A stretch of 27,961 nt of DNA. Source: a virus. The translations under genes and the position numbers were made by a program. Under the pieces are notes generated by a model. It was not told the origin of the DNA, did no database searches, and saw only the letters and a program-made list of their open reading frames with translations. The DNA lies in IMG/VR virus record IMGVR_UViG_3300047170_000040, positions 1 through 27,961 of that record. One strand, 5' to 3'. Numbering within the stretch: position 1 is the stretch's first letter; each line of letters begins with the position of its first letter. This document shows positions 7,693 through 26,901 of this stretch, one piece after another.

Positions 7693-8414
7693 TACCAACC
7701 CCCGTCCCAGCCGCCGCCGCCGCCGTAACCATTCTGCTTTTGCACATCGACGACCTTCGGAGGACGACCGGCGTCCCGATTCTCTGCCATGGCTTCGATG
7801 CGCGCGATGAGCGCCGCCTTTTCATTCATTAAAACCTGAACGTCCGACTCCTGCTTCTGCAGGCACTTCATCGCGGCGTCGCAGATGATGTATTCGGTCC
7901 AGCCGGATACGCCCTGAACCAGGTCCGTCGAATTCACAAGCGTTGTCATCGTCGGCACGTACCAAAGCTGAATCGTAAGGCCGCCTTGCGGCACCTGCGT
8001 GCTAGGGCCTGCCCTCAGCCATAGATTCGATCCGTTGATCCTGTATTGGATATCCGTCGGGCCGTAATAAGCCTGGAAGCTTGAGTAGCTTGAATCGTTG
8101 CGCTCGCCGAACTCAAACGACTTAAGCGTGATCCAAACGCCTGGCTGGGTTGCGACCTGAAGATCGACGCCCAGGAGCTTGTAAAAGTCAGTCGGCAGAG
8201 GAAACAGGTAGTTCACGCCGTCCGTTTGAAACGTATACGGCGTTTGAACGTAGTAGTTATCCCCGTACCGACTTACCAATAGGTCATAGAGCTCGAAGTA
8301 CGACTGATTGATGTACGACGTGAGCTCCGCCGTCGCGATGAACTGCGAATTGACCATGTCAGCTCGCTGAAGAACTGCGGCTTGCAGATCAGATAGCTGC
8401 ATGGTCGTCGCCAT
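7692..8414 (-). CDS. Putative head-tail adaptor / tail tubular protein A-like protein (240 aa)
   Basis: The start is ATG 8414 with AGGAG seven bases upstream. The N-terminus is helical (a region starting LSDLQAAVLQRADM). The middle is beta-rich with many Tyr and Phe residues. A helical C-terminal part (ICDAAMKCLQKQESD, then EKAALIARIEAMAENRD) follows, and the protein ends in a glycine-rich tail GGGGGWDGGW. This helix-beta-helix layout and the size match the dodecameric adaptor (gatekeeper) that binds below the portal in podoviruses. It lies between the capsid group and the nozzle gene, which supports the call. The Gly/Trp tail is unusual and may be a docking peptide. Confidence 0.6.
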   Translation of the reverse strand: MATTMQLSDLQAAVLQRADMVNSQFIATAELTSYINQSYFELYDLLVSRYGDNYYVQTPYTFQTDGVNYLFPLPTDFYKLLGVDLQVATQPGVWITLKSFEFGERNDSSYSSFQAYYGPTDIQYRINGSNLWLRAGPSTQVPQGGLTIQLWYVPTMTTLVNSTDLVQGVSGWTEYIICDAAMKCLQKQESDVQVLMNEKAALIARIEAMAENRDAGRPPKVVDVQKQNGYGGGGGWDGGW

Positions 8415-8642
8415 TTATCGCTCCTGCTCGTCTTGCATCTCATCGTCGCGCGCGATCATGTCAGCGAAAGCCCGCAAGGCCTTTTGAAGCCTCTCTGGCG
8501 AATCGCTCTTGAACGCGCGCAGCATGTCTTCCGAGATCGCGCCGAGCTCGTCCAGAGACGCCCCTGCGTTGTCCCGGTCTGGCTTCATGCCCATGCCGTC
8601 GATGATCATCGATACCGTTTTTTTGCCGTCTGGAATGATCAT
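8415..8642 (-). CDS. Small acidic hypothetical protein (75 aa)
   Basis: ATG at 8642 is preceded by GGGG five bases upstream, and the stop lies directly next to the adaptor start. The protein is helical and rich in Asp, Glu and Arg in its second half (ending RDDEMQDEQER). It has no membrane segment or cysteine motif. Position in the head-tail block suggests a minor structural or assembly role. I do not recognise it. Confidence 0.65.
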   Translation of the reverse strand: MIIPDGKKTVSMIIDGMGMKPDRDNAGASLDELGAISEDMLRAFKSDSPERLQKALRAFADMIARDDEMQDEQER

Positions 8643-9648: not shown

Positions 9649-10872
9649 TCAGGCCGACAGCGTGACCTGGCTGTTCCAGCCCGGAGCGTTGGTGCGGAGC
9701 TGCGCGTAGTAACCCACGCGAACTTCGCCGGCGTCCGCGTTGTACACGCGAAGCATTTCAAGGCCGTCGCCGTAGCGCAGAATTTGCGGAGCGTCGCCGA
9801 GCGACTCAAGAGCCCAAGTGTTCATCTGCATCAGATAACCTTGTTGCACTTGGCAGTTGCGATCAGGGAACACCTTGATCATCGAATTGGCTCCGTTGAC
9901 CATGATGCCGCGGAACGCGATCTCGGCGGGACCTTTCTCGGTGAAGTACTGGACCTTCGAGCCCAACGCTTTTTCAAGAGCCGAGTACGAGCCGAAGTTC
10001 GTGACGAACGTGTCGGGCTTGCCGCTTTCACGGGCCAGCAGGGCCGATGCGTCGACCAACGCTTCTTCGATCGATTGCGAAGCGCCGTTGTAACGGCCGC
10101 CGCCAAGGCGCCACGTATCCGACGAACGGTTCACGCCAAAGAAGTTATCGGTCGAAGTCGGCGCGGTCGCGGGAAGCCACCCGGCCAAGCCCGTGATCTT
10201 CGCATTCACGTCGCCTTGAACGAGCAAGAAGTCGGCCGCGGTCCAGCCAGTCGGAGATCCTGCTGCGCCGCCAAGGCCAGTCGCAGACACCGTGATCGCG
10301 CCGCCAGAGCGGTTAACCGCGATGATGTAGCCAAGGGCCGCGCGCGGAGTTCCGCCGTCGGTCGCGTTGGCTTGAATGACTTGGTTCAGTTCGAACTGAA
10401 CGACGTCGCCGGGGTTCGTCAGCGTAATGACGCCAGTCGAAATGCTGCCGATCGCGCCGATCGAGCCAGTGCCCGAGCGGAAGAGAGAGGACGCCAGCGA
10501 GTTCGTAGACGAACGGATCGCTCCGTCGACCACGAGCTTTGCGCCTTCGAGGAACGACATTTGGTCGGTGCGCGACGCAAGCATCGTTTGGTTGTCGAGG
10601 GTCGCAATCGAGTAATCAGACGCCCGCGTGAGCAAGAACGACTGAATTTGAACCGGCGACTGGTTGCCTTGCGCGTTGGCAAAGACCGAGCTTCGGCCTT
10701 GCGACACGCCGATGATGATCGGGATCGGCTTGTATTTGCCGCCGAAATCCGTGTTCTTCTTCAGCATCGCCAAAAGCGGGTTGTCAGCGTAGACAAGGTT
10801 CTCGACGGTCATGCCGTCGTACAGCTCTTTCAGAGCCGCGTTCATAGATGATAGGTCTAAATAAGCGCCCAC
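9649..10872 (-). CDS. Major capsid protein (407 aa)
   Basis: It forms the head shell. The protein has the size and layout of podovirus capsid proteins: a helical N-terminus (SSMNAALKELYDGMTVEN), a central beta-rich part with an insertion, and a C-terminus with LRYGDGLEMLRVYN and GYYAQLRTNAPGWN. I prefer GTG 10872 because AAGAAGG lies eight bases upstream; the in-frame GTG at 10878 is only two bases from that site. The gene follows the scaffold and ends in a strong terminator, as expected for the most abundant virion protein. Confidence 0.85.
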   Translation of the reverse strand: MGAYLDLSSMNAALKELYDGMTVENLVYADNPLLAMLKKNTDFGGKYKPIPIIIGVSQGRSSVFANAQGNQSPVQIQSFLLTRASDYSIATLDNQTMLASRTDQMSFLEGAKLVVDGAIRSSTNSLASSLFRSGTGSIGAIGSISTGVITLTNPGDVVQFELNQVIQANATDGGTPRAALGYIIAVNRSGGAITVSATGLGGAAGSPTGWTAADFLLVQGDVNAKITGLAGWLPATAPTSTDNFFGVNRSSDTWRLGGGRYNGASQSIEEALVDASALLARESGKPDTFVTNFGSYSALEKALGSKVQYFTEKGPAEIAFRGIMVNGANSMIKVFPDRNCQVQQGYLMQMNTWALESLGDAPQILRYGDGLEMLRVYNADAGEVRVGYYAQLRTNAPGWNSQVTLSA

Positions 10873-11045
10873 AGGCACATCCTTCTTCGCATAAGCGAAA
10901 GTTGTTTAGAGGTAGTTTTGACGTGTGCCTGCTAAACGGATGACCCGTGACTATCGATGACGCGGCTAAGGTATGCGCGAACCCAAAGGATCTATCTTCT
11001 AATCCCAGCCGCATGGAACGGCCGGGCCATATCAATAGCTGAAGG
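10873..11045 (-). promoter_or_regulatory. Leader of the capsid gene with a hairpin over the ribosome site
   Basis: This 173-base spacer separates scaffold and capsid genes. Near its end, minus-strand TTTCGC (10900-10895) can pair with GCGAAG (10890-10885) around a TTAT loop. The 3' arm overlaps the AAGAAGG ribosome site at 10881-10887, so pairing could limit initiation. I see no convincing sigma-70 promoter and no further gene in the spacer. Confidence 0.4.
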
Positions 11046-12298: not shown

Positions 12299-12537
12299 TC
12301 TTTGATTCCTTCGCTCGTAGTTTGCAAATTGATCTTCTCGACTCTGATTTCATCTGCATCGTCTTCGCCTGAAGTCACAAGCATCGTGATGCCCGACTGA
12401 AGGCAAAAGGAATTGAGCGCGCGGGCAAGCGCACGGCGATGCGATTCAAGCGTCCCCTTTTTAAGGACGATGTGGGCGTAGGTGCCCTTGACGAACTTAA
12501 TCTTTCGAAGCTGGCTCATCGCGAATAGCGGGCTCAA
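12295..12537 (-). CDS. Small basic hypothetical protein (80 aa)
   Basis: The stop of the portal gene overlaps a TTG start at 12537 (TTGA). An alternative is ATG at 12519, six codons later, giving 74 residues. The protein has an alternating basic/hydrophobic start (LRKIKFVKGTYAHIVLKK) and an acidic end. No motif is recognised. It lies in the head operon between portal and scaffold. Confidence 0.6.
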   Translation of the reverse strand: MSPLFAMSQLRKIKFVKGTYAHIVLKKGTLESHRRALARALNSFCLQSGITMLVTSGEDDADEIRVEKINLQTTSEGIKE

Positions 12538-14432
12538 GCAGCTGATCCCGGTACGTTTTGAACTAAATCGGATTGAGGTTGATCTTGGGGCGCTGCCTGA
12601 GGCGGAGCCATCGCCGCTTGAGCGGCTGCTTGCTGGGCCGCAGCCGCGGCCTTTGCCTTATCCTGAAGATCCTGGACCCGGGATGCGAACGTGCGCAGCA
12701 GATCAAGCTTCTCTTCGGACGCGCCTGCGAGCTTCGCCTGGCTGTAATACTCAAGGTACATCTCTTGCGCCAAGACGAGGTCGTCCTGCGGCTCGGGAGG
12801 CGTGAACTCGCCGTCCGCATCGAGCATCTTCTCAAACACCATATGGAGGTAATCCTCCTGGCTATCCTGGAGAGAATCGATCTGCTCAAGATCGGGGAAG
12901 TCCATGAGGCGCTTGCCTTGCCTTGGCGTATAGAACCCGGCTTGGATGAACTCCTGAACCGCTTGCAGGCGTCCTGCGGGCTCGTCAGGCAATGACGAGA
13001 CCGGGAAGGCCTTCATCACGTACTCGTCATCTTCAAGATCGATCTCAGCCCAATCGATCTCCTCGATGAAGCGCTTGCCCGGAACCTTTACCTTGAACTC
13101 GCCTTCGGTCTCGTAGATGTCCTTTGCGCAATCAATCGAGAGCTTGGCTAGGTCCAGGAAGAAGTTCTCGTAGCGCTGGCCGATGATGTTGAACCGGTCG
13201 CTCTCGATGTCGTTGTACTCGCGAAGCGCTTTGCCGGAGTTCAGCCCCTGAGGCTTTTCGCTTGCGGCCGACAGCATCGACACTCCAATTTGGTCAAAAG
13301 CTAAGCCCTTTAAGCGTTCGAAGTGGCTGTACATCTCCATCGGCACGATAGGCGGCACGATGTATTGAGGCGGCGTGTTTGAGTAGGTGAGGATCGTCCC
13401 GACGTCGTTGTTGAAATGCTCCTTTACGATCTTTGAGCCGTTTTCCATCAAGATTTTAAAGGTGCCTGAGAGCTGCATCGAGCGCTGGATCAGCCAAAGC
13501 AGCTTATTCATCTCAAGCTGGATGCTTTGAATCTGCTCAGCGCCCCCTTGCGCCCACCAACCGAACTGGCGCTTCGACCAGGGCAGGAAGGCGAAAGGAA
13601 AGAAGTCCTTCTTGTAGTCCTCGCTGAAAAGCTCGCCTTCTGGGATCGTGATGCAGTGGATGCCGTCTTTCGCGTCAGGGCCTGACGGCAAATGCCAGCT
13701 TTCGCAGACGGTAATTTGATCCGCCACGTTCTGGTAGACGCCCGTGAGGTCGGAAGTCGTGCTGCTCGCGGTTGCTAGGAGCTTAGCCTTGCCTGGAAAC
13801 ATCTCGATCAATACGTCGCGGTCGATGTTTTTAACCCTATGAAGCTGACGCGGCATGCCGTTAAAGGCTTCAGCCCAATCGACGTAGATCTCAGATGCGA
13901 GGACCCGGTCCCACTTCACGCGCTTGTGATGCTCGTAAACCTGGATGATGCCGTCGCCCCAGATGAACGAATCTCGAAAAGCGTCGACGCCTTTGCGATA
14001 AGCGTGGTTCTCGTAAAAGATGCCGTCGGTGAACTTGTTTAGCTTCTTCGCCTTGCGCTGCATCATGTAATCCCCGCCGGACGTCAAGAAGTAGGGCTTC
14101 GGCTTGTTCTTCGCCATCTTGGCCGTGATCGTGTCGCCGCAGCTCTGGACCACGTTGTAGCTGGTGCGCTCTTTCACGACGTTCGCGGTGCTTGAGGCTT
14201 TCGTCATGGAAAGGCCGTTTACGCCCATCATCGTGACGTTGCCGTAAAGCCTCGTTGAAATCTGGTACTGGCTTTGGCGCTTGCTGTCGAACTCCATCAG
14301 CATCTTCACGATGCGGGTGACCGATTGCGCAAGCTCGTCTTTGCTTGCTAGCCACCATCGCTTGTTTACCGTCGAAGCTTTATTTTCGACCGAATCGCCC
14401 GACTTGAACGTCGTGAAATCTACTTTTTGCAT
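12534..14432 (-). CDS. Portal protein (632 aa)
   Basis: It forms the dodecameric DNA entry channel at one head vertex. ATG at 14432 has AAAGG seven bases upstream. The length, the helix-rich middle, the hydrophobic/aromatic core region (FFPFAFLPWSKRQFGWW) and an Ala/Gln-rich disordered tail (QAAAQAAMAPPQAAPQDQ) fit large podovirus portals. It lies between the large terminase with one small gene and the scaffold, the canonical order. There is no short diagnostic motif, so the call depends on size, character and synteny. Confidence 0.8.
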   Translation of the reverse strand: MQKVDFTTFKSGDSVENKASTVNKRWWLASKDELAQSVTRIVKMLMEFDSKRQSQYQISTRLYGNVTMMGVNGLSMTKASSTANVVKERTSYNVVQSCGDTITAKMAKNKPKPYFLTSGGDYMMQRKAKKLNKFTDGIFYENHAYRKGVDAFRDSFIWGDGIIQVYEHHKRVKWDRVLASEIYVDWAEAFNGMPRQLHRVKNIDRDVLIEMFPGKAKLLATASSTTSDLTGVYQNVADQITVCESWHLPSGPDAKDGIHCITIPEGELFSEDYKKDFFPFAFLPWSKRQFGWWAQGGAEQIQSIQLEMNKLLWLIQRSMQLSGTFKILMENGSKIVKEHFNNDVGTILTYSNTPPQYIVPPIVPMEMYSHFERLKGLAFDQIGVSMLSAASEKPQGLNSGKALREYNDIESDRFNIIGQRYENFFLDLAKLSIDCAKDIYETEGEFKVKVPGKRFIEEIDWAEIDLEDDEYVMKAFPVSSLPDEPAGRLQAVQEFIQAGFYTPRQGKRLMDFPDLEQIDSLQDSQEDYLHMVFEKMLDADGEFTPPEPQDDLVLAQEMYLEYYSQAKLAGASEEKLDLLRTFASRVQDLQDKAKAAAAAQQAAAQAAMAPPQAAPQDQPQSDLVQNVPGSAA

Positions 14433-14460: not shown

Positions 14461-14706
14461 TTACTTTTCGTCTTGAGCTGGCTCTTCCATGCCTTCGGAC
14501 GCCATGAACAGAAGCTGATCGTCCGGCGGCATCATGTCGTAGAGGGATGGCTTCTCAGGGATGACGGGACCTGCTTCGTAGCCCGTGAGCTCGAACTCGA
14601 GCGCATGGTATTTGAGCTTTCGGATCTGGTGTTTTTTAGCTAGCTCAATGAACGCTTCCGCTGCCGCAAGCTCATTAGCCAACTCCGTGGCCTTTTCTTC
14701 CGTCAC
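14461..14706 (-). CDS. Small acidic helical protein between terminase and portal (81 aa)
   Basis: The start is GTG at 14706, overlapping the terminase stop as GTGA. The N-terminus is a strong amphipathic helix (ATELANELAAAEAFIELAKK). The C-terminus is acidic with Met and Pro. It may be a head accessory or adaptor. No family is recognised. Confidence 0.65.
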   Translation of the reverse strand: MTEEKATELANELAAAEAFIELAKKHQIRKLKYHALEFELTGYEAGPVIPEKPSLYDMMPPDDQLLFMASEGMEEPAQDEK

Positions 14707-16070
14707 TGATCATCCCCCATCATCTGGTCGAACATCCTATCCTCTTCAAGCTTGCGTTCAAGGAATTGCATGGCTTCGTCTTCCTGCTGCCTAAACCACG
14801 CAGGCGTCGACGGCTTTGGCTTCTCGACTTCCGGCTCATGCAGCCAATGTAAACACTCTCTGTATGAATAAAGCACCGCGTCGCAAATATCCGAATGGAA
14901 GGCGTCGCTGACGACGAGGCGATCGGGCGTGCTTTTCTCCCAGTCCCACTTAAGCCGCATGGAATCTTGCGCGAACTGGCCGTTTGGCTTGGCGAAGAAC
15001 TTCTTGGTGCGCAAGGCGTCGTTGAGCAGCTCGTAGTATTCGTTTTTGCGGGTTTTTTCGGCCGCGACGATCGGCAAAGCGTAACGCCTGCGCATCTCTT
15101 CTGCGATCTTGGCGCCAAGGCCGCCCGTATCCATGACGATGCGGTTTGGGTCGTAGCGCTTGATGCAGCCCTCAAGCTGATGGACGAGCTCGGTGATGCC
15201 CTGCTGCGGCTTCACGATCTCTTCGACCAGGTAGCAAGCGTCGTAAAGGTCGTTCCAAGCGATGACGGCTATCGCGTCCGCGTCATTGAAGCCGATGTCG
15301 ACGCCTAGAATGTACTGCCAAGGGCGCACAGAAGGAGGCAGAGAATCAAAGCCGTTAAGTCCTGAGTTCCATTTGATGACGAGAGCGCCGAGATCCAGAA
15401 CCCACCGACCATAATACTCGCGAACAAGAGTAGGGCTTTTGTCATCCCAGCCCTTCTTCTTTTTGAGATCATCGATGAATCCTTTGGGATCGACTTCGAG
15501 ATATGGGTTGTCGAATAACGACCAAGCGTGCCGCGAAAAGCCATGGCGCCCCTCCTCTGAGATTTCAAAAAAGTAACCGGACGGCAGAGGCCCTGGCGTG
15601 CCCGTCAGCGCGATCCAGCCGTCTTTGTAATCGATGATGGCAGGACCGAGCACGTCATCCACAAGATTCTCAACATGTGGACCAAAATCCTGACACTCGT
15701 CGATCGCGGCGCCCGGCGTCTTGATGCCCTTGAGCCTGCGGATGAAGTTCTTCATGTCGGCGCCAAAGAGCTGAAGCTTCGACTGATTGGGCAAAGTCAT
15801 CGTGAGGTCTGACTCGGTGAACGCAGCCTTGATATTATGCTTGTCCGAGATCTCATGCAGGATATTCCACATGATGTTTTTCGCCGACTCGCGCGTCAGC
15901 GCAACGTACGGGCAGAAGCTGCCTGGATGCTTCATCATCGTCCTGATGAAGCGGTAAGCGACGGCGGTCGACTTGCCGGCCCTTCGCGTGCAGCAAGCCG
16001 ACACGTAGCGGGCCGGGTCCATCACGAAGGCGTCCTGCTGCGGATAGCTTAGGTCGCGGACGGATTCCAA
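14703..16070 (-). CDS. terL: Terminase large subunit (455 aa as counted from TTG; start uncertain)
   Basis: This is the ATP-driven DNA packaging motor and headful/end nuclease. Counting from TTG 16070, an adenine-binding PQQ lies at 10-12, Walker A CTRRAGKST at 27-35, Walker B AAIDE at 121-125 and the coupling motif LTGTPG at 155-160. The RNase H-like nuclease has D258 (LGVDIG), D314 (IVMDTGG) and D394/D397 (HSDICD). All catalytic residues expected for the family are present. The TTG has no ribosome site, and the frame stays open upstream past the neighbouring stop at 16139 without ATG, GTG or TTG. A CTG or ATT start there is possible. Starting at the next GTG/ATG (codons 16-17) would lose the PQQ motif. 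Confidence 0.93.
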   Translation of the reverse strand: MESVRDLSYPQQDAFVMDPARYVSACCTRRAGKSTAVAYRFIRTMMKHPGSFCPYVALTRESAKNIMWNILHEISDKHNIKAAFTESDLTMTLPNQSKLQLFGADMKNFIRRLKGIKTPGAAIDECQDFGPHVENLVDDVLGPAIIDYKDGWIALTGTPGPLPSGYFFEISEEGRHGFSRHAWSLFDNPYLEVDPKGFIDDLKKKKGWDDKSPTLVREYYGRWVLDLGALVIKWNSGLNGFDSLPPSVRPWQYILGVDIGFNDADAIAVIAWNDLYDACYLVEEIVKPQQGITELVHQLEGCIKRYDPNRIVMDTGGLGAKIAEEMRRRYALPIVAAEKTRKNEYYELLNDALRTKKFFAKPNGQFAQDSMRLKWDWEKSTPDRLVVSDAFHSDICDAVLYSYRECLHWLHEPEVEKPKPSTPAWFRQQEDEAMQFLERKLEEDRMFDQMMGDDQ

Positions 16071-16999: not shown

Positions 17000-18598
17000 T
17001 CAGCCCGTTTTCCAATAAGCGATTCTTTTCCTGGCTATGCCGACATACTCCTCGTCTTGCTCGATTCCGATGAATTTAAAACCAAGCTTTACGGCGGCGC
17101 AGCCGGTGGAACCCGAGCCCATGAACGGGTCCAGCACGACTCCGCCGGGAGGCGTGACCAGGCGGATCAAATATTCCATAAGGGCGATTGGCTTGACGGT
17201 GCTATGGAAGTTTTGCGACTTTGCGAAGCTTCTTAGTTTCGACAGCGTTTGCAATAGCGCATGCACGGCACCAAGGGCTGATGCCATCTCGGCGCTTGTA
17301 GTATTCAGCTTCAAGGGGCTTGTGAACGCCGCACTTTCGGCAAGGCTTAATCCACTCGCCTCGATCGTCCTGATAGCATCCAGAATGCTCGCGTTTATGA
17401 TCGAGCTTTGAGACGCACTCAAGGTTCTCAAGTCGGTTATCAGCTTTGTCGCCGTTTCGATGGTGAATATCAAAGCCGGCGGGTATCGGTCCGTTGAAGT
17501 TGGCCCAGACCCATCGATGTTCCATTGTTTGGCGGCCGTCAATTGAGCGTCGGATATAGCCCTTGCGAGTTGGTTTATGTTTTCCGTTAACGAGTTTAGG
17601 TCCTGTCTTTGCCATACCTCGAATTCCCAAACTAGATCCGCACTGTCAAGCCCAGCGTTGCGCTCACTTTTTGAGGCCTTGGCCACGTAGAAGAAGCGGG
17701 AGGCGCCTGGATTCTCGCCATCATCGTAACGAGGTGACGAACCGCCCGCATGACCAATGCCAAACATTGATTTCGATTTATCGAAGTTATCTTTCTTTGA
17801 ACGACCTTTACCAGCTGAGTGAATCCCGCCCGCTATGCTCTGCTCGTCCAGCGCCTCGGCCGCTTGCTCATCTAAAATGATGTTGGCGGGCCAGCGGCCT
17901 TCGGCTCGCACTGTCGGACCAATATCGAATTTGACGAAGAATGCCCCTCCGTCGGTTTTTTTAAATCGATTGGGATCTGCGTCGAGTTTGCCCGCCACGC
18001 GACTCGCCTCAATATTCAGCGCTCCCGTGCCGTACTTCTCGACGTTCTTCGCCACGGTCCCGATCAGCGGCTTGCGCGCTAGCACAATCGGCTCGTTTGC
18101 GGGCTTAAGTGCTGTGCCCCAGCCCTGCCATTGCTTTGCGAGGTCGGTCGCGGGCGCGGTTATGGCACCGTTATCATCTTGGTGAGCGCGACCAAAATTG
18201 GTATTCGCCAGAACGCCTCGGTTAAATCCACCGGGCGCTTCTTTTATTCCAACGACCTCACGCTCCGCCCCAGCCGCCTTATCCATCGCCTTCGAGACGT
18301 CAAGCGACTTCGGAAACCCGCTGCCATAAAGCCATTGAATTTGGTCTCTAATTTCAAAGCCCGCGTCTTCGATTGCGCACGCCATGCGATGATACGTTCG
18401 CGTGCCACCGAAGCTGAGCAGATGACCGCCAGGCTTGAGAACGCGCAAAGCCTCGCGCCAGACCTCAACCCCCGGCACGTCGTAGTCCCAATGCTTGTTC
18501 ATAAAGGCCAAGCCATACGGCGGATCCGTAACGATGGCGTCGACTTCTGCGTCCGCCAGAAATTTCATCTCTTCGACGCAGTTGCCCCAGATGATCAT
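17000..18598 (-). CDS. Beta-class DNA methyltransferase (probably N6-adenine) with an unusual central insertion (532 aa)
   Basis: It methylates an exocyclic amine in DNA. Catalytic motif DPPY is at residues 25-28, and the SAM-binding motif (LDPFMGSGSTG) is near the C-terminus at 489-499, preceded by HSTVKP at 465-470. This permuted order (IV before I) defines the beta class. DPPY favours N6-adenine, though N4-cytosine cannot be excluded. In relatives the conserved KASKSER segment is separated from HPTVKP by a short linker. Here about 143 residues (323-466) intervene, and that stretch coincides exactly with a complete HNH gene in another frame. The inserted residues are Ser/Thr/Leu/Ala-rich and predicted helical. 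The start overlaps the small terminase stop by ATGA. Likely roles are protection from host restriction or control of gene expression. Confidence 0.88.
   Translation of the reverse strand: MIIWGNCVEEMKFLADAEVDAIVTDPPYGLAFMNKHWDYDVPGVEVWREALRVLKPGGHLLSFGGTRTYHRMACAIEDAGFEIRDQIQWLYGSGFPKSLDVSKAMDKAAGAEREVVGIKEAPGGFNRGVLANTNFGRAHQDDNGAITAPATDLAKQWQGWGTALKPANEPIVLARKPLIGTVAKNVEKYGTGALNIEASRVAGKLDADPNRFKKTDGGAFFVKFDIGPTVRAEGRWPANIILDEQAAEALDEQSIAGGIHSAGKGRSKKDNFDKSKSMFGIGHAGGSSPRYDDGENPGASRFFYVAKASKSERNAGLDSADLVWEFEVWQRQDLNSLTENINQLARAISDAQLTAAKQWNIDGSGPTSTDRYPPALIFTIETATKLITDLRTLSASQSSIINASILDAIRTIEASGLSLAESAAFTSPLKLNTTSAEMASALGAVHALLQTLSKLRSFAKSQNFHSTVKPIALMEYLIRLVTPPGGVVLDPFMGSGSTGCAAVKLGFKFIGIEQDEEYVGIARKRIAYWKTG
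17202..17630 (-). CDS. HNH homing-type endonuclease nested in the methyltransferase gene in another frame (142 aa)
   Basis: HNH nucleases cut DNA with a beta-beta-alpha metal site. Key residues are visible: H38-R39 in MEHRWVW, H56-H57 and N59 in FDIHHRNGDK, and N65/N69 in DNRLENLE. A zinc-ribbon pair follows, C97-x2-C100 and C121-x2-C124. The N-terminus is basic. The frame opens at TTG 17630; ATG 17615 (codon 6, preceded closely by GAGG) is an alternative. Its stop TAG lies within the codons for the methyltransferase HST motif. The whole gene is inside the methyltransferase frame, same strand, offset by two bases. HNH genes of this form are usually free-standing selfish elements that home into phage genes. 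Confidence 0.85.
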   Translation of the reverse strand: MGIRGMAKTGPKLVNGKHKPTRKGYIRRSIDGRQTMEHRWVWANFNGPIPAGFDIHHRNGDKADNRLENLECVSKLDHKREHSGCYQDDRGEWIKPCRKCGVHKPLEAEYYKRRDGISPWCRACAIANAVETKKLRKVAKLP

Positions 18599-22386: not shown

Positions 22387-22395
22387 TTGAGGCTC

Positions 22396-22432
22396 TGCAT
22401 ACCATGCCAGAAGTTTAATTCAAGCTTAAACT
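22396..22432 (-). promoter_or_regulatory. Inverted repeat with a possible promoter upstream of the MKLTLTT gene
   Basis: AGTTTAA (22432-22426 on the minus strand) and TTAAACT (22418-22412) form a perfect seven-base inverted repeat around GCTTGAA. TTGAAT at 22423-22418 and TATGCA at 22401-22396, 16 bases apart, resemble a weak sigma-70 promoter overlapping it. The -10 would lie only nine bases before the ATG, so a leaderless message would result. That is a weakness of the promoter reading. Confidence 0.35.
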
Positions 22433-23123
22433 ACGTCAGGCCGCTCAGCATCCTGAACGCTTCCCTCGCTTGGAAGGGGACGACCGAGTTTCCGAGAGCG
22501 CGCGTGCGCTCCATCCGGTCGGGTAATTCATCAACCACTCGATCCACTCGGGGTTCACGAACCCACCAAGACCCGATGTTTGGATCGCAGAGACCTGGAG
22601 ATCCGAGAAGCCTGGCTTCTTCCCTCTGTTCTCTGAGTGATAGCGGGACTTGCGCGCGAGGAGCGTAGCCGGCTTTTCGTAGAAAGTTTTTGGAGTGGGC
22701 CAGCAAGAACCAACGGGACCTTTTGTGCGGGGCTCCAATGGCTGCGGCAGATAAAGCAGTCCATCGACAGTCATACCCCATAGCATCAAGTGACCCGACC
22801 ACATCTCTAAGGCCACGGGTTCTGATGGCAGGGACGTTCTCAAGGAAGAGGAACGGGGCTTTGGTCTCCTCGGCAAGCCTGAGGATCTCCCTAAAAAGAC
22901 CCGACCGCTCGCCTGCCAGGCCTCGACCGCGGCCTGCAATCGATATGTCCTGGCAAGGGAAGCCGCCAAAGATGAGGTCGATTTTAGGGAGATCCGCCTG
23001 GCGAAGAGTTCGGACGTCGTCCCAGACAGGGGCCTCATGCAGGAGGCCGTCTCGCTTCAGACCCCTATGGAGCCAGACGCTATCGCCCTGGCAATAATTA
23101 ACTTTTTGCGTGGAACCTAAAGG
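22431..23123 (-). pseudogene. C5-cytosine DNA methyltransferase remnant, N-terminal motif I missing
   Basis: The frame encodes clear Dcm-type motifs in order. FGGFPCQDIS is motif IV with the catalytic Cys. LFLENVPAI is motif VI. GYDCRWTALSAAAIGAPHKRSRWFLLA covers motifs VII-VIII (separate blocks). RALGNSVVPFQAREAF is motif X. Motif I (FSGxGG), which binds SAM and normally precedes motif IV by about 70-80 residues, is absent. The frame is bounded upstream by TAA at 23124, and between that stop and GTG 22802 there is no ATG, GTG or TTG. No other frame nearby encodes motif I. The target recognition region is also short. Without motif I it should be inactive unless the missing part is supplied in trans or by recoding. 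I treat it as a pseudogene or degraded gene. Confidence 0.75.
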
Positions 23124-23186
23124 TTAGTTTTTCAGGGTGCGTTTGTCAACGTCCGAATCGACTAAGGTCGTCAGCGTTAGTTTCAT
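23124..23186 (-). CDS. Micro-ORF beginning MKLTLTT, in frame with the methyltransferase remnant (20 aa)
   Basis: ATG 23186 overlaps the upstream gene stop as ATGA and opens 20 codons that end in TAA 23124. The first seven residues equal those of the 68-residue protein at 22386, with two silent base changes. Its stop is in the same frame as the methyltransferase remnant that follows. It may be the broken front of a gene created by deletion, or a short coupled peptide. Confidence 0.45.
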   Translation of the reverse strand: MKLTLTTLVDSDVDKRTLKN

Positions 23187-23347
23187 CGGCCTTCCAGGCG
23201 GCGCTGCATCTTGAGCACGCCCAAGCGAAGGCGGTTCGCCCGGCCCACTTGCCTCGCCACCCCTAAGCTAAACGCCGATAAAGAGATGCTAAATATCGAC
23301 AATAAAATGCTTAAAATTAACATGATGTCGAAGGCCGTGCATTCCAT
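23183..23347 (-). CDS. Small single-pass membrane protein (54 aa)
   Basis: I choose ATG 23347, which has AGGA nine bases upstream; ATG 23365 is in frame but lacks a ribosome site. Residues about 6-30 are a hydrophobic segment (FDIMLILSILLSIFSISLSA). The C-terminus is basic (RQVGRANRLRLGVLKMQRRLEGR), which predicts it stays in the cytoplasm. It is translationally linked (ATGA) to the micro-ORF downstream. Function unknown. Confidence 0.6.
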   Translation of the reverse strand: MECTAFDIMLILSILLSIFSISLSAFSLGVARQVGRANRLRLGVLKMQRRLEGR

Positions 23348-23404: not shown

Positions 23405-23590
23405 TTATGCGAAAAAGGCGAGCACGACGTAGGTATAAATGGCTAGGAAGGCGACCGCGAAAACGACGCTGACGCGGAACTGGGATCGCTCCGCCGCCTG
23501 CTCGCGCTCATGCTCCGCGATCATGGTATCCAGGAGATTCTCGTTACGGTCGTCCTGCGGCTTCATTCGGGTACCTGCGAGAGTCAGCAC
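23405..23590 (-). CDS. Small C-terminally anchored membrane protein (61 aa)
   Basis: The start is GTG 23590, fixed by a strong AAAGGAGG site five bases upstream. The first 40 residues are acidic and polar (DDRNENLLDTMIAEHERE). Residues 41-61 are one hydrophobic segment ending at the C-terminus (VVFAVAFLAIYTYVVLAFFA). This tail-anchored topology would place the charged part in the cytoplasm. It is the first gene after the structured non-coding region. Confidence 0.7.
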   Translation of the reverse strand: MLTLAGTRMKPQDDRNENLLDTMIAEHEREQAAERSQFRVSVVFAVAFLAIYTYVVLAFFA

Positions 23591-23640
23591 TAGGTCCTCC
23601 TTTGAGATATAGGCCTTATCGGCGCGGGGCTTAGGGAACT

Positions 23641-24350
23641 TGAGCTAAAAGAGCAATTCATTCGGTTTATGCAAAGCGTAAACTCTTAGCCTTGCGATGT
23701 CGACCTTCTCAAGGCCCGCCCATACCAATCTTCTCTGCGCGCCAATTGTCCGTCCTGAGAGGGTTGCCATCCCGCCATCGTGGCGGGCTGGGGGAAGACG
23801 TTCGATCAGAGTTTCACTTCATCGGGCATGGGATCAAAAGCCCTCGAAAGCGGAGCTCTGGGTATAGTCCCCCCTACCCCCCATGCCCAAGTTTTGAGCA
23901 TGGAGGCGGAGAACAAGGTCAAAGCACGAAGGACATCCTTCGCCACGGGGTACCATCGCTGTTACGGTCGCGACTTGCGTTTTCCCGCTCGCAGTCCAGT
24001 TATCAACCGCCTGACCGCGCTCGAAGCCCGGCCTTCATCTCAGGCGATTACCTCTCGGCTGGACTTCCCCCCATCGCCAGACCCCACGATGCTTACCGTA
24101 GGACGCACGATTGTTTACGTGCCGTTCACTCGCCACAAAAAGCGAATGCAGCGTCCCCCTCGGGGACGGATGGGCTCTTAGCCACCGTTTTTGCAAAGTC
24201 TTCTCTTGTGATGGGAAAGGTAGTCGGGCACACCGAAGGAACTCGGTGAACCGACGGTCGTTTCGTCATCATCGTCCAGTAGCCACAGCAAATGGTTACT
24301 GAGAGCACCGGAGGCTTTACGGCCTCTGGTGCTCAGACTTTTAATTCAAG
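23641..24350 (-). ncRNA. Candidate large structured phage RNA (about 700 nt)
   Basis: No credible gene lies in this 700-base stretch, yet it is packed with helices: 24303-24315/24322-24334, 24231-24236/24243-24248, 24152-24158/24162-24168, 24005-24014/24040-24049, 23972-23979/23990-23996, 23927-23932/23937-23942, 23878-23890/23894-23906, 23771-23777/23781-23787, 23702-23707/23711-23716 and 23644-23651/23683-23690. In four of them (five positions) the odd pair is G-U if read as minus-strand RNA but A-C on the plus strand. The 24303 helix shows the reverse. The strand matches the tRNAs and all phage genes. Size and position beside tRNA genes resemble the large ornate phage RNAs GOLLD and ROOL, but I cannot match a consensus. 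The ends are approximate. Confidence 0.6.
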
Positions 24351-24410
24351 TTCCAAAATGGGCAAGCTCAATCTTGAGACGCTCCGTCCCAAAGCGATCC
24401 ATCTAGAAAT

Positions 24411-24656
24411 CTATTCACCGTCGCCATAGGACGGGATCGACGCATCTTGGCTGCCCCAGGGATCGATGGGCGCCTCAGCTTCGATAGGCGGGTTCTGCGT
24501 GCGAAGGGCGTAATGACCGAACGTCGTCATGTCGGCTTGCGTCTGCATGTAGCCTTGCACGTATTGGCCGTCCCAGCGCACGTAGCCCTGCTGGTAGGAC
24601 TGAGCTAGGGCTGGCGCTGCAAAAGCGATTGTAAGGGCAATTAGAGCGGTTTTCAT
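24411..24656 (-). CDS. Small exported protein with signal peptide (81 aa)
   Basis: ATG 24656 has GGAGGT four bases upstream. Residues 1-18 are a classic signal peptide (MKTALIALTIAFAAPALA) with an ALA cleavage site. The mature part starts QSYQQGYVRWDGQYVQGYMQ, is rich in Tyr and Gln, and ends acidic (IPSYGDGE). No lipobox is present, so a periplasmic or secreted location is predicted. It lies between the tRNAs and the structured RNA region. An exported product in such a spot suggests a host-modifying (moron-like) role, which is inference. Confidence 0.75.
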   Translation of the reverse strand: MKTALIALTIAFAAPALAQSYQQGYVRWDGQYVQGYMQTQADMTTFGHYALRTQNPPIEAEAPIDPWGSQDASIPSYGDGE

Positions 24657-24762
24657 GGGGACCTCCGATGCTCGTCTCTATTGCGAGATCGGGGCCGGAA
24701 GGCTGAGGCTTATATTGGAGCTTTGTGCTTAAGCATTAGGCATGCGTTTACGAAAAGCGGCA

Positions 24763-24836
24763 TGGATGAAGAGGAAGGAATCGAACCTTCATTCACGGCT
24801 TCAAAGGCCGACGTCCTACCGTTAGACGACTCTTCA
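24763..24836 (-). tRNA. tRNA-Gln (anticodon UUG)
   Basis: The cloverleaf is visible on the minus strand. The acceptor stem TGAAGAG/CTCTTCA is perfect over seven pairs. The D-arm GTC/GAC encloses TAACGGTAG. The anticodon loop CTTTGAA gives UUG, and the T-arm GAAGG/CCTTC has the standard loop TTCGATT. The discriminator is T, followed by an encoded CCA at 24765-24763. The outermost anticodon-stem position is a U-U mismatch. It reads CAA codons. Confidence 0.93.
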
Positions 24837-24842
24837 AAAACA

Positions 24843-24918
24843 TGGCTGTGGATCCAGGCACCGCCCCTGGCCCTCCGGGGTAACAACCCGGCATCTCCGC
24901 TCTGTCGACCTATCCACA
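24843..24918 (-). tRNA. tRNA-Asn (anticodon GUU) with a non-standard T-loop
   Basis: The acceptor stem TGTGGAT/ATCCACA is perfect over seven pairs. The discriminator is G, followed by an encoded CCA at 24845-24843. The anticodon stem CCGGG/CCCGG encloses TTGTTAC, giving GUU. The D-arm is short (GTC/GAT with one G-U) with an 11-base loop holding GG. The T-stem CCAGG/CCTGG is perfect, but its loop is GGCGGTG instead of the near-universal TTCRAAY, so T54, T55 and A58 are all replaced. Positions 8-9 are AG rather than UA. The fold is intact, and only six bases separate it from tRNA-Gln. Confidence 0.78.
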
Positions 24919-25233
24919 GCAAAGATAAAGAACGAGCGGGACGCGATCCCCGCAACCAATCGACTGGCGATATCTCGCCCGTACTCAGGACATAACTCCT
25001 TCGTGGCCTACCCCATGGTGAGGGCGGGCATGTCTCCAGCCGAAGCCTGAATCCTCAACACGCCAGCCTTAGTGCTGTACGTTGCGGTTACCCGCAGGGT
25101 TGTCGGCAGGCCTTTGCAGCCCATCAGCTATCTTCGCAGCTTCCCATGCCGTCGTTCAAACAAATCATATATCAAGGCGGAGAAGGCGGGGAGCGACCCC
25201 GCCGAATGCATGCAATGCATCTCCGCGCGAATT
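24919..25233 (-). other. Structured spacer between the small gene at 25234 and the tRNAs
   Basis: This 315-base spacer starts right after a stop codon. GCGGAGA (25226-25220) pairs with TCTCCGC (25183-25177) and closes two hairpins: TGCA/TGCA around TTGCA, and GGCGGGG/CCCCGCC (25203-25185) around TCGCT. Together they make a Y-shaped three-way junction. Further on are the hairpins GGCGA/TCGCC (24979-24966, loop GATA) and GCGGG/CCCGC (24953-24936). The latter is followed by TCGTTCTTTATCTTT, which is a poor terminator-like tail before tRNA-Asn. Two short frames also occur in it. It may be an RNA leader or a second structured RNA. Confidence 0.45.
25008..25124 (-). CDS. Possible micro-ORF (38 aa)
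   Basis: ATG 25124 opens 38 codons (TTLRVTATYSTKAGVLRIQA, then SAGDMPALTMG). It overlaps by one base (TGATG) the stop of a 14-codon frame that starts at ATG 25168. Third codon positions are mostly G or C, as in the phage genes nearby, and the peptide has a plausible beta-like pattern. GAAG upstream is a weak ribosome site. It lies in a region that also folds well, so it could be chance. Confidence 0.35.
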   Translation of the reverse strand: MGCKGLPTTLRVTATYSTKAGVLRIQASAGDMPALTMG

Positions 25234-26381: not shown

Positions 26382-26429
26382 TTCCAGTTGATGTGCAAAT
26401 TAAACTCTCGCGATAAATAAAAACTCGCC

Positions 26430-26630
26430 TCAGCAATCAAGCTCATGGGCCGTACGACGCAGGTCGAGTCGTGCGCTTGCCCAGCAGTGAAATTCGACGT
26501 TCGTCGGCTCATATCCAAACTCCTCGCATGCCTGATCCCAAAGGCTCAATCGGTCGCTCAAGCATTCAAAATCAGTCAGCCCCTTCTCTCTTCCAAGTAT
26601 TCTCAAGACCCAGCGCCACAGACTCGTCAT
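26430..26630 (-). CDS. Small hypothetical protein (66 aa)
   Basis: ATG 26630 is preceded by AAAGGGGG four bases upstream, a strong site that supports translation although the frame overlaps the end of the previous gene by 59 bases. The N-terminus is hydrophobic and basic (MTSLWRWVLRILGREKG). The rest is mixed and aromatic (SLWDQACEEFGYEPTNVEFH) with three cysteines. No function is assigned. Confidence 0.65.
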   Translation of the reverse strand: MTSLWRWVLRILGREKGLTDFECLSDRLSLWDQACEEFGYEPTNVEFHCWASARLDLRRTAHELDC

Positions 26631-26901
26631 CTATCCCCCTTTGGCTTAGTCCCTTTTCCCGGTCTACCCACCCCATTTGAGCCATCTTCTCATGCCATTG
26701 CTCTTCTATAGACCGAAAAGCCGCCTCATCCATGATCTCGCCGAGCTTCGCGTGCGTCGCTTCCCCAAGCCTAAATTTCGCTCGCATTTTCACAAGCCAT
26801 GCGTGATAGGCCCGAATATCGGATAGGCGCGGGAAGTCATCGATCCTTGAGTCGTACTTCACTTCGCCCGTCTTCCCATCGGTTACCTTCACGAATCCCA
26901 T
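26572..26901 (-). CDS. Hypothetical protein (109 aa)
   Basis: The start is ATG 26901, which shares one base with the stop of the helix-turn-helix gene (TGATG) and has GGAG five bases upstream. The longer open frame upstream only shadows that gene. The N-terminus is a small strand-turn-strand (MGFVKVTDGKTGEVKYDSRI). The rest is helical and charged (FRSIEEQWHEKMAQMGWVDR), containing several Trp and Met. It is coupled to the regulator gene. Function unknown. Confidence 0.7.
   Translation of the reverse strand: MGFVKVTDGKTGEVKYDSRIDDFPRLSDIRAYHAWLVKMRAKFRLGEATHAKLGEIMDEAAFRSIEEQWHEKMAQMGWVDREKGLSQRGIDDESVALGLENTWKREGAD

Follow-up and report, generated by a model that had tools for sequence, protein, structure and literature searches.

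We asked whether a gene-free stretch of a phage genome, lying between two small genes and close to a tRNA gene, encodes a large structured RNA and, if so, of what kind. The window that we analysed is the whole of IMG/VR record IMGVR_UViG_3300047170_000040, 27,961 bases that form a virus record in themselves. The minus strand carries its genes for structure and recombination, among them a P22-like portal (12534-14432), a terminase large subunit (14703-16070), whose name rests on weak phage matches, and a major capsid protein (9649-10878), named from its position and its relatives. Beyond the capsid gene lie an endolysin and an Erf-like annealing protein. A first-pass annotation, made from the sequence alone, had called the stretch a candidate giant phage RNA.

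Borders of the element and absence of genes

The gap (23591-24410) lies between two genes of the minus strand. The upstream gene (24411-24656, 81 aa) has by eye a secreted-type N-terminus, and the downstream gene (23405-23590, 61 aa) has a GTG start with AAAGGAGG upstream of it and a hydrophobic C-terminus. Read from the sequence, both have good ribosome-binding sites. A repeat search of the region returned one inverted repeat of 17 nt with 15 Watson-Crick pairs (23635-23651/24338-24354). This repeat brings the gap ends together, and we took the element as 24354 to 23635 on the minus strand (720 nt); its borders are 57 nt away from the stop of the upstream gene and about 45 nt from the start of the downstream one. 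The arms of the closing stem, both read on the minus strand, are GGAACTTGAATTAAAAG on the 5' side (24338-24354) and CTTTTAGCTCAAGTTCC on the 3' side (23635-23651). An equally good inverted repeat no more than 120 nt from both gap ends occurred in 1 of 300 shuffles; anywhere in the 1.2-kb region, one was found in 12 of 100. Neither a promoter nor a terminator was evident at the element ends.

The open reading frames inside 23591-24410 score below 0 bits per codon, compared with 0.2-0.5 for most genes of the phage, and a plus-strand frame of 185 aa scores -0.31 bits per codon. Pfam identified no family in five stop-masked frames of the gap (all but the third plus-strand frame). On these grounds we rejected coding by either strand, the 185-aa frame included, which agrees with the first-pass view that no plausible gene is present. 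The same annotation had described the genome as otherwise gap-free, which is incorrect: stretches without a called gene also occur at 22387-23210, 24657-25233 and 26382-26900.

Neighbouring tRNA and methyltransferase genes

The sole certain tRNA near the element is a tRNA-Gln(TTG) at 24763-24836 (minus strand), 409 nt upstream, with the 81-aa gene in between. The tRNA setting proposed in the first-pass annotation thus holds for one gene, in addition to which there is a tRNA-like fold at 24846-24921 (minus strand) that neither ARAGORN nor Rfam called. In this fold the Asn(GUU) anticodon arm is perfect and the acceptor-like stem has 9 bp; a CCA end is present, but the T loop (GGCGGUG) is non-standard. 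The fold is possibly a decayed or unusual tRNA-Asn. A normal tRNA-Asn(GUU) is present in relatives of the phage. Between the tRNA-like fold and a 132-aa gene there is a further gene-free stretch on the minus strand (24925-25152), with an end-to-end pairing of its own (GAACGA..UCGUUC) and, at 24953-24936, a hairpin that resembles a terminator; its stability is not clearly beyond chance level.

On the other side of the element, 22445-23120 (minus strand) holds the remnant of a C5 cytosine methyltransferase (PF00145, 1.8e-29). No N-terminal motif and no start codon were found, and the motif NPEWIEWLMNYPTGW lies in another frame, so that the gene is truncated and frameshifted. We take this remnant as a warning that parts of the segment are degenerating. 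A second methyltransferase gene, for an N6/N4 DNA enzyme (17000-18598, minus strand), contains about 140 inserted residues that keep its frame, and within this insertion an HNH endonuclease gene (17202-17630, minus strand; PF13392, 3.1e-19) lies out of frame. This hidden gene resembles the insertion of ShiLan, for which a comparable arrangement has been described (PMC11855218).

Fold stability and predicted helices

We assessed the stability of the predicted folds against 120 dinucleotide-preserving shuffles. The minus strand has a minimum free energy of -302.2 kcal/mol compared with -261.0 +/- 7.1 kcal/mol for the shuffles (z -5.8), and 0 of 120 shuffles were as low. The plus strand reaches -290.0 versus -242.0 +/- 8.3, likewise a z of -5.8. 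With sets of 20 shuffles, the minus-strand z varied with the exact stretch, from -3.2 to -8.1. Among 240-nt windows across the minus strand of the record, 24121-24360 was the best, and 24001-24240 and 24241-24480 were also in the top seven; more generally, the windows in 23761-24480 are among the most stable of the record relative to shuffles. The first-pass description of the stretch as helix-dense is borne out by these energies. The number of local stems is unremarkable, being reached by 20 of 100 shuffles, and such counts on their own were rejected as proof of structure. Elsewhere in the record, the RNA predicted from either strand of the coding stretch 8281-8520 (minus strand) is also unusually stable (dE -18.4 and -15.2 versus shuffles).

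The predicted minus-strand fold is a series of hairpins and one branched domain, enclosed by the closing stem. Following the minus strand from the 5' arm, the helices are GAGCACCAGAGGC/GCCTCCGGTGCTC (24303-24334), which pairs better on the plus strand, CAGTAACCA/TGGCTACTG (24277-24301), CACCGA/TCGGTG (24231-24248), and a possible hairpin CGTCCCC/GGGGACG (24152-24168) with which a long-range pairing of the minus-strand fold competes. These are followed by CATTCGCT/GGCGAGTG (24127-24148), GCACG/CGTGC (24105-24122) and CCTACGGT/ATCGTGGG (24083-24102). The branched domain spans 23993-24065, with the closing helix AGTCCAG/CTGGACT and the inner helix AATCGCCTG/CAGGCGGTT (24049-24041/24013-24005). 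Beyond it are the hairpin GAAGG/CCTTC (23928-23941), a 13-pair hairpin with two U-G pairs at 23878-23906 that matches its first-pass description, an interrupted stem CAGAG...CTCTG (23807-23860), and the hairpin CCCGCC/GGCGGG (23771-23787). The last hairpin, GTTTATGC/GCGTAAAC (23665-23683), is assigned to the plus strand, on which it pairs better. Five helices had been listed before our analysis. Those at 24334-24303, 23906-23878 and 24049-24041/24013-24005 were recovered, but the confident helices do not include 23716-23711/23707-23702, and 23690-23683/23651-23644 competes with the closing stem.

Strand of the candidate RNA

The first-pass annotation had argued that four of its helices hold G-U pairs only when read as minus-strand RNA, one helix (24303-24334) showing the opposite. 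To count without favouring a strand, we picked stems by a score in which G-U and A-C have equal weight, and tallied both afterwards. In the minus-strand reading, these stems have 18 G-U and 14 A-C pairs, and the local hairpins have 6 of each. There is no G-U excess over A-C and thus no sign of selection on RNA rather than DNA pairing; the plus strand, moreover, folds at the same z of -5.8. The strand-bias argument consequently fell away. The earlier suggestion of a giant phage RNA still agrees with an element that is large and structured, has defined ends and lies in a phage near a tRNA gene. Certain helices pair better when read from the plus strand, for example 23665-23683 and 23807-23860, the latter extending to 11 pairs on that strand. 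We infer from the direction of the genes and from the larger number of confident pairs on the minus strand (132 versus 110) that a candidate RNA would be encoded on the minus strand.

Comparison with known RNA families

We compared the record with all 4227 families of Rfam 15 using cmscan. At the gathering threshold, the whole record yielded tRNA-Gln only. The element was scanned with permissive filters, and no family matched it up to E = 5; this includes OLE, HEARO and raiA, which the first-pass annotation had named together with GOLLD and ROOL as families to compare, and no recognisable member of any of the five was found. Separate searches up to E 10 gave no match of the element to the GOLLD model (RF02032, with a gathering score of 150 bits), the ROOL model (RF03087) or the group I intron model (Intron_gpI, RF00028). 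The known control genomes do match the group I model, although it also misses introns of the relatives of this phage. The ROOL search is weaker than the GOLLD and group I searches because no control genome matched the ROOL model.

Search for relatives of the element

Relatives were sought through neighbouring proteins, DNA sequence and structure. Protein queries brought in 48 loci from viral contigs (14 with the terminase, 12 with the capsid protein and 22 with the Erf-like protein). Comparison of the element with the whole records behind most of these loci gave chance matches only, of about 14-20 nt. The 81-aa gene led to no homologues in viral contigs, and the capsid protein to none in genome contigs. 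Distant blastn searches of phage and plasmid records returned either no match or short ones, about 30 nt long, and in scans of viral contigs with four DNA patterns the matches stopped at the pattern edge. The subdomain 24110-23985, built into a covariance model and run on 1.0 Mb of relatives, gave one 19-bit match, inside a well-coding ORF. The element therefore appears to be an orphan, with no detectable relative in the collections searched, an absence that is no proof of uniqueness.

The closest relatives, G027 and G028, have capsid proteins about 80% identical to that of this phage, lack the element, and share none of the genes at 17-25.6 kb, which makes that region an accessory segment. 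Structured gaps in four other relatives (G007, G008, G013 and G014) were considered as homologues and rejected as a different RNA. Two gene-free gaps in related phages also fold far above shuffles, L092 9389-10130 (G029 45389-46130) at z -6.8 and L057 14470-14901 (G003 33470-33901) at z -5.5; neither has an Rfam match at the gathering threshold.

Paired insertions in the capsid genes of related phages

Capsid introns are known from other phages (PMC3706429). Five related phage records have a conserved-core RNA inserted in their capsid gene, at three different positions among the five (L062 8100-9320, minus; L065 9600-10560, plus; L070 13270-13830, plus; L071 330-910, minus; L037 8190-8657, plus). 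HNH genes lie inside two of the five insertions. Of 34 pairs, 18 are changed on both sides and slid-partner controls collapse, a test made on the same four sequences from which the structure was derived, two of them nearly identical. The resulting model found the fifth member, which had not been used in building it, at 162 bits. Rfam, including Intron_gpI, does not detect this RNA, and the model has no match in our record.

All five carry a second insertion of 45-59 nt, located 20-40 nt upstream of the structured one. As read from the four distinct versions, both insertions start after U and end in G, and the frame is restored on their removal. The upstream insertion begins with a P1-like hairpin formed with the end of the preceding exon, and it is possibly a core-less mini-intron served by the downstream ribozyme. 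To our knowledge, such a mini-intron paired with a capsid intron has not been known before and would be new; the paired insertions deserve separate study.

Interpretation and alternative explanations

A gene-free segment that folds far beyond chance and has a stem joining its ends may encode a large structural RNA. The reading that we prefer, with a probability of roughly 0.45, is that the element is an orphan RNA of this kind, similar to GOLLD and ROOL in its action and a member of neither. The stretch from 24354 to 23635 would be transcribed along with the surrounding minus-strand genes and would adopt a closed multi-branch fold, in which the terminal stem unites the ends and encloses one branched domain together with some twelve hairpins. 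The RNA itself would accumulate during infection as the functional object, as in large ornate phage RNAs, and might serve to hold or shield components of phage or host, as a scaffold or a self-assembling particle. The stability, the closing stem, the absence of coding, the minus-strand neighbours, the larger number of minus-strand pairs and the nearby tRNA fit an RNA. Arguing against it are the lack of a homologue, of a G-U excess and of a promoter or terminator, the equal folding of the two strands and the decayed gene nearby. More tentatively, the element could be the first known member of a new class of large phage structural RNA unrelated to GOLLD and ROOL and acting as an RNA-only object in infection; such a class, equally tentative, would be defined by the stem that joins its ends and by some twelve hairpins.

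Selection could instead have acted on the DNA, with the inverted repeats serving as single-stranded hairpins or protein sites in replication origin function, recombination or packaging. Equal folding of both strands and the balance of G-U and A-C are what this explanation would lead one to expect, and the Erf annealing gene is 1.3 kb away. We nevertheless consider it unlikely, as the repeat search did not find direct repeats such as origin iterons, and a 720-nt array of mostly unlike hairpins corresponds to no origin or packaging layout familiar to us.

The segment might also be a relic of decayed genes or of a dead mobile element, its helices having arisen by chance or from old terminal repeats. 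The truncated, frameshifted C5 methyltransferase, the abnormal tRNA-like fold and the absence of the segment from relatives are all in keeping with decay, and the repeats at its two ends may represent terminal inverted repeats, as in MITE-type elements. However, decay does not push folding stability to a z of -5.8, and the five frames scanned hold no protein remnant. No target-site duplication is visible in the flanking sequence, and the end-repeat motif gave single matches in genome contigs, never two copies at one locus among the matches listed. A relic is thus an improbable source of the element, in our estimate.

A self-splicing intron without an ORF, or the remains of one, of a type that Rfam misses is very unlikely. 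Relatives of the phage do carry introns invisible to Rfam, and large closed folds are typical of introns, but no gene is visibly split here, both flanking ORFs being complete, and neither the group I model nor the model of the relatives' intron matches. That the element serves the 61-aa gene, ahead of whose start and strong ribosome-binding site it stops, as a long untranslated leader or as an intergenic region regulating it is likewise very unlikely, given that 720 nt is very long for so compact a genome and that no known riboswitch or leader family matches.

Comparison with known large structured RNAs

Our preferred reading, an orphan large structured RNA, places the element beside a small number of known systems. 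Group I introns of phages resemble it in being structured, mobile and accessory among close relatives, but they interrupt genes, whereas the ORFs flanking the element are complete with ribosome-binding sites; the element also has no endonuclease inside and no match to their model. OLE, HEARO and raiA are large structured RNAs as well (bacterial or mobile-element), and differ in that their models do not match.

GOLLD and ROOL are phage-borne and often found near tRNA genes or tRNA islands; they have no established function and were recently found to build RNA-only cages (PMC12286853). GOLLD is a large RNA without an ORF whose members often exceed 800 nt (PMC12286853). The element is likewise large and ORF-less, in a record with a P22-like portal and with tRNA-Gln 409 nt away, but the conserved 3' domain of GOLLD is not recognisable in it and RF02032 is unmatched. 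ROOL is similar to the element in size (its model has 574 positions), in being phage-borne and near tRNAs, and in its complex multi-helix fold; it differs in lying in a tRNA island rather than near a single tRNA, and RF03087 is unmatched. The large ornate RNAs known so far are few in number. If the element is one of them, it would add an unrelated class from a gene-dense phage, which would make it easier to see what such RNAs have in common and would offer a compact system for testing what they do.
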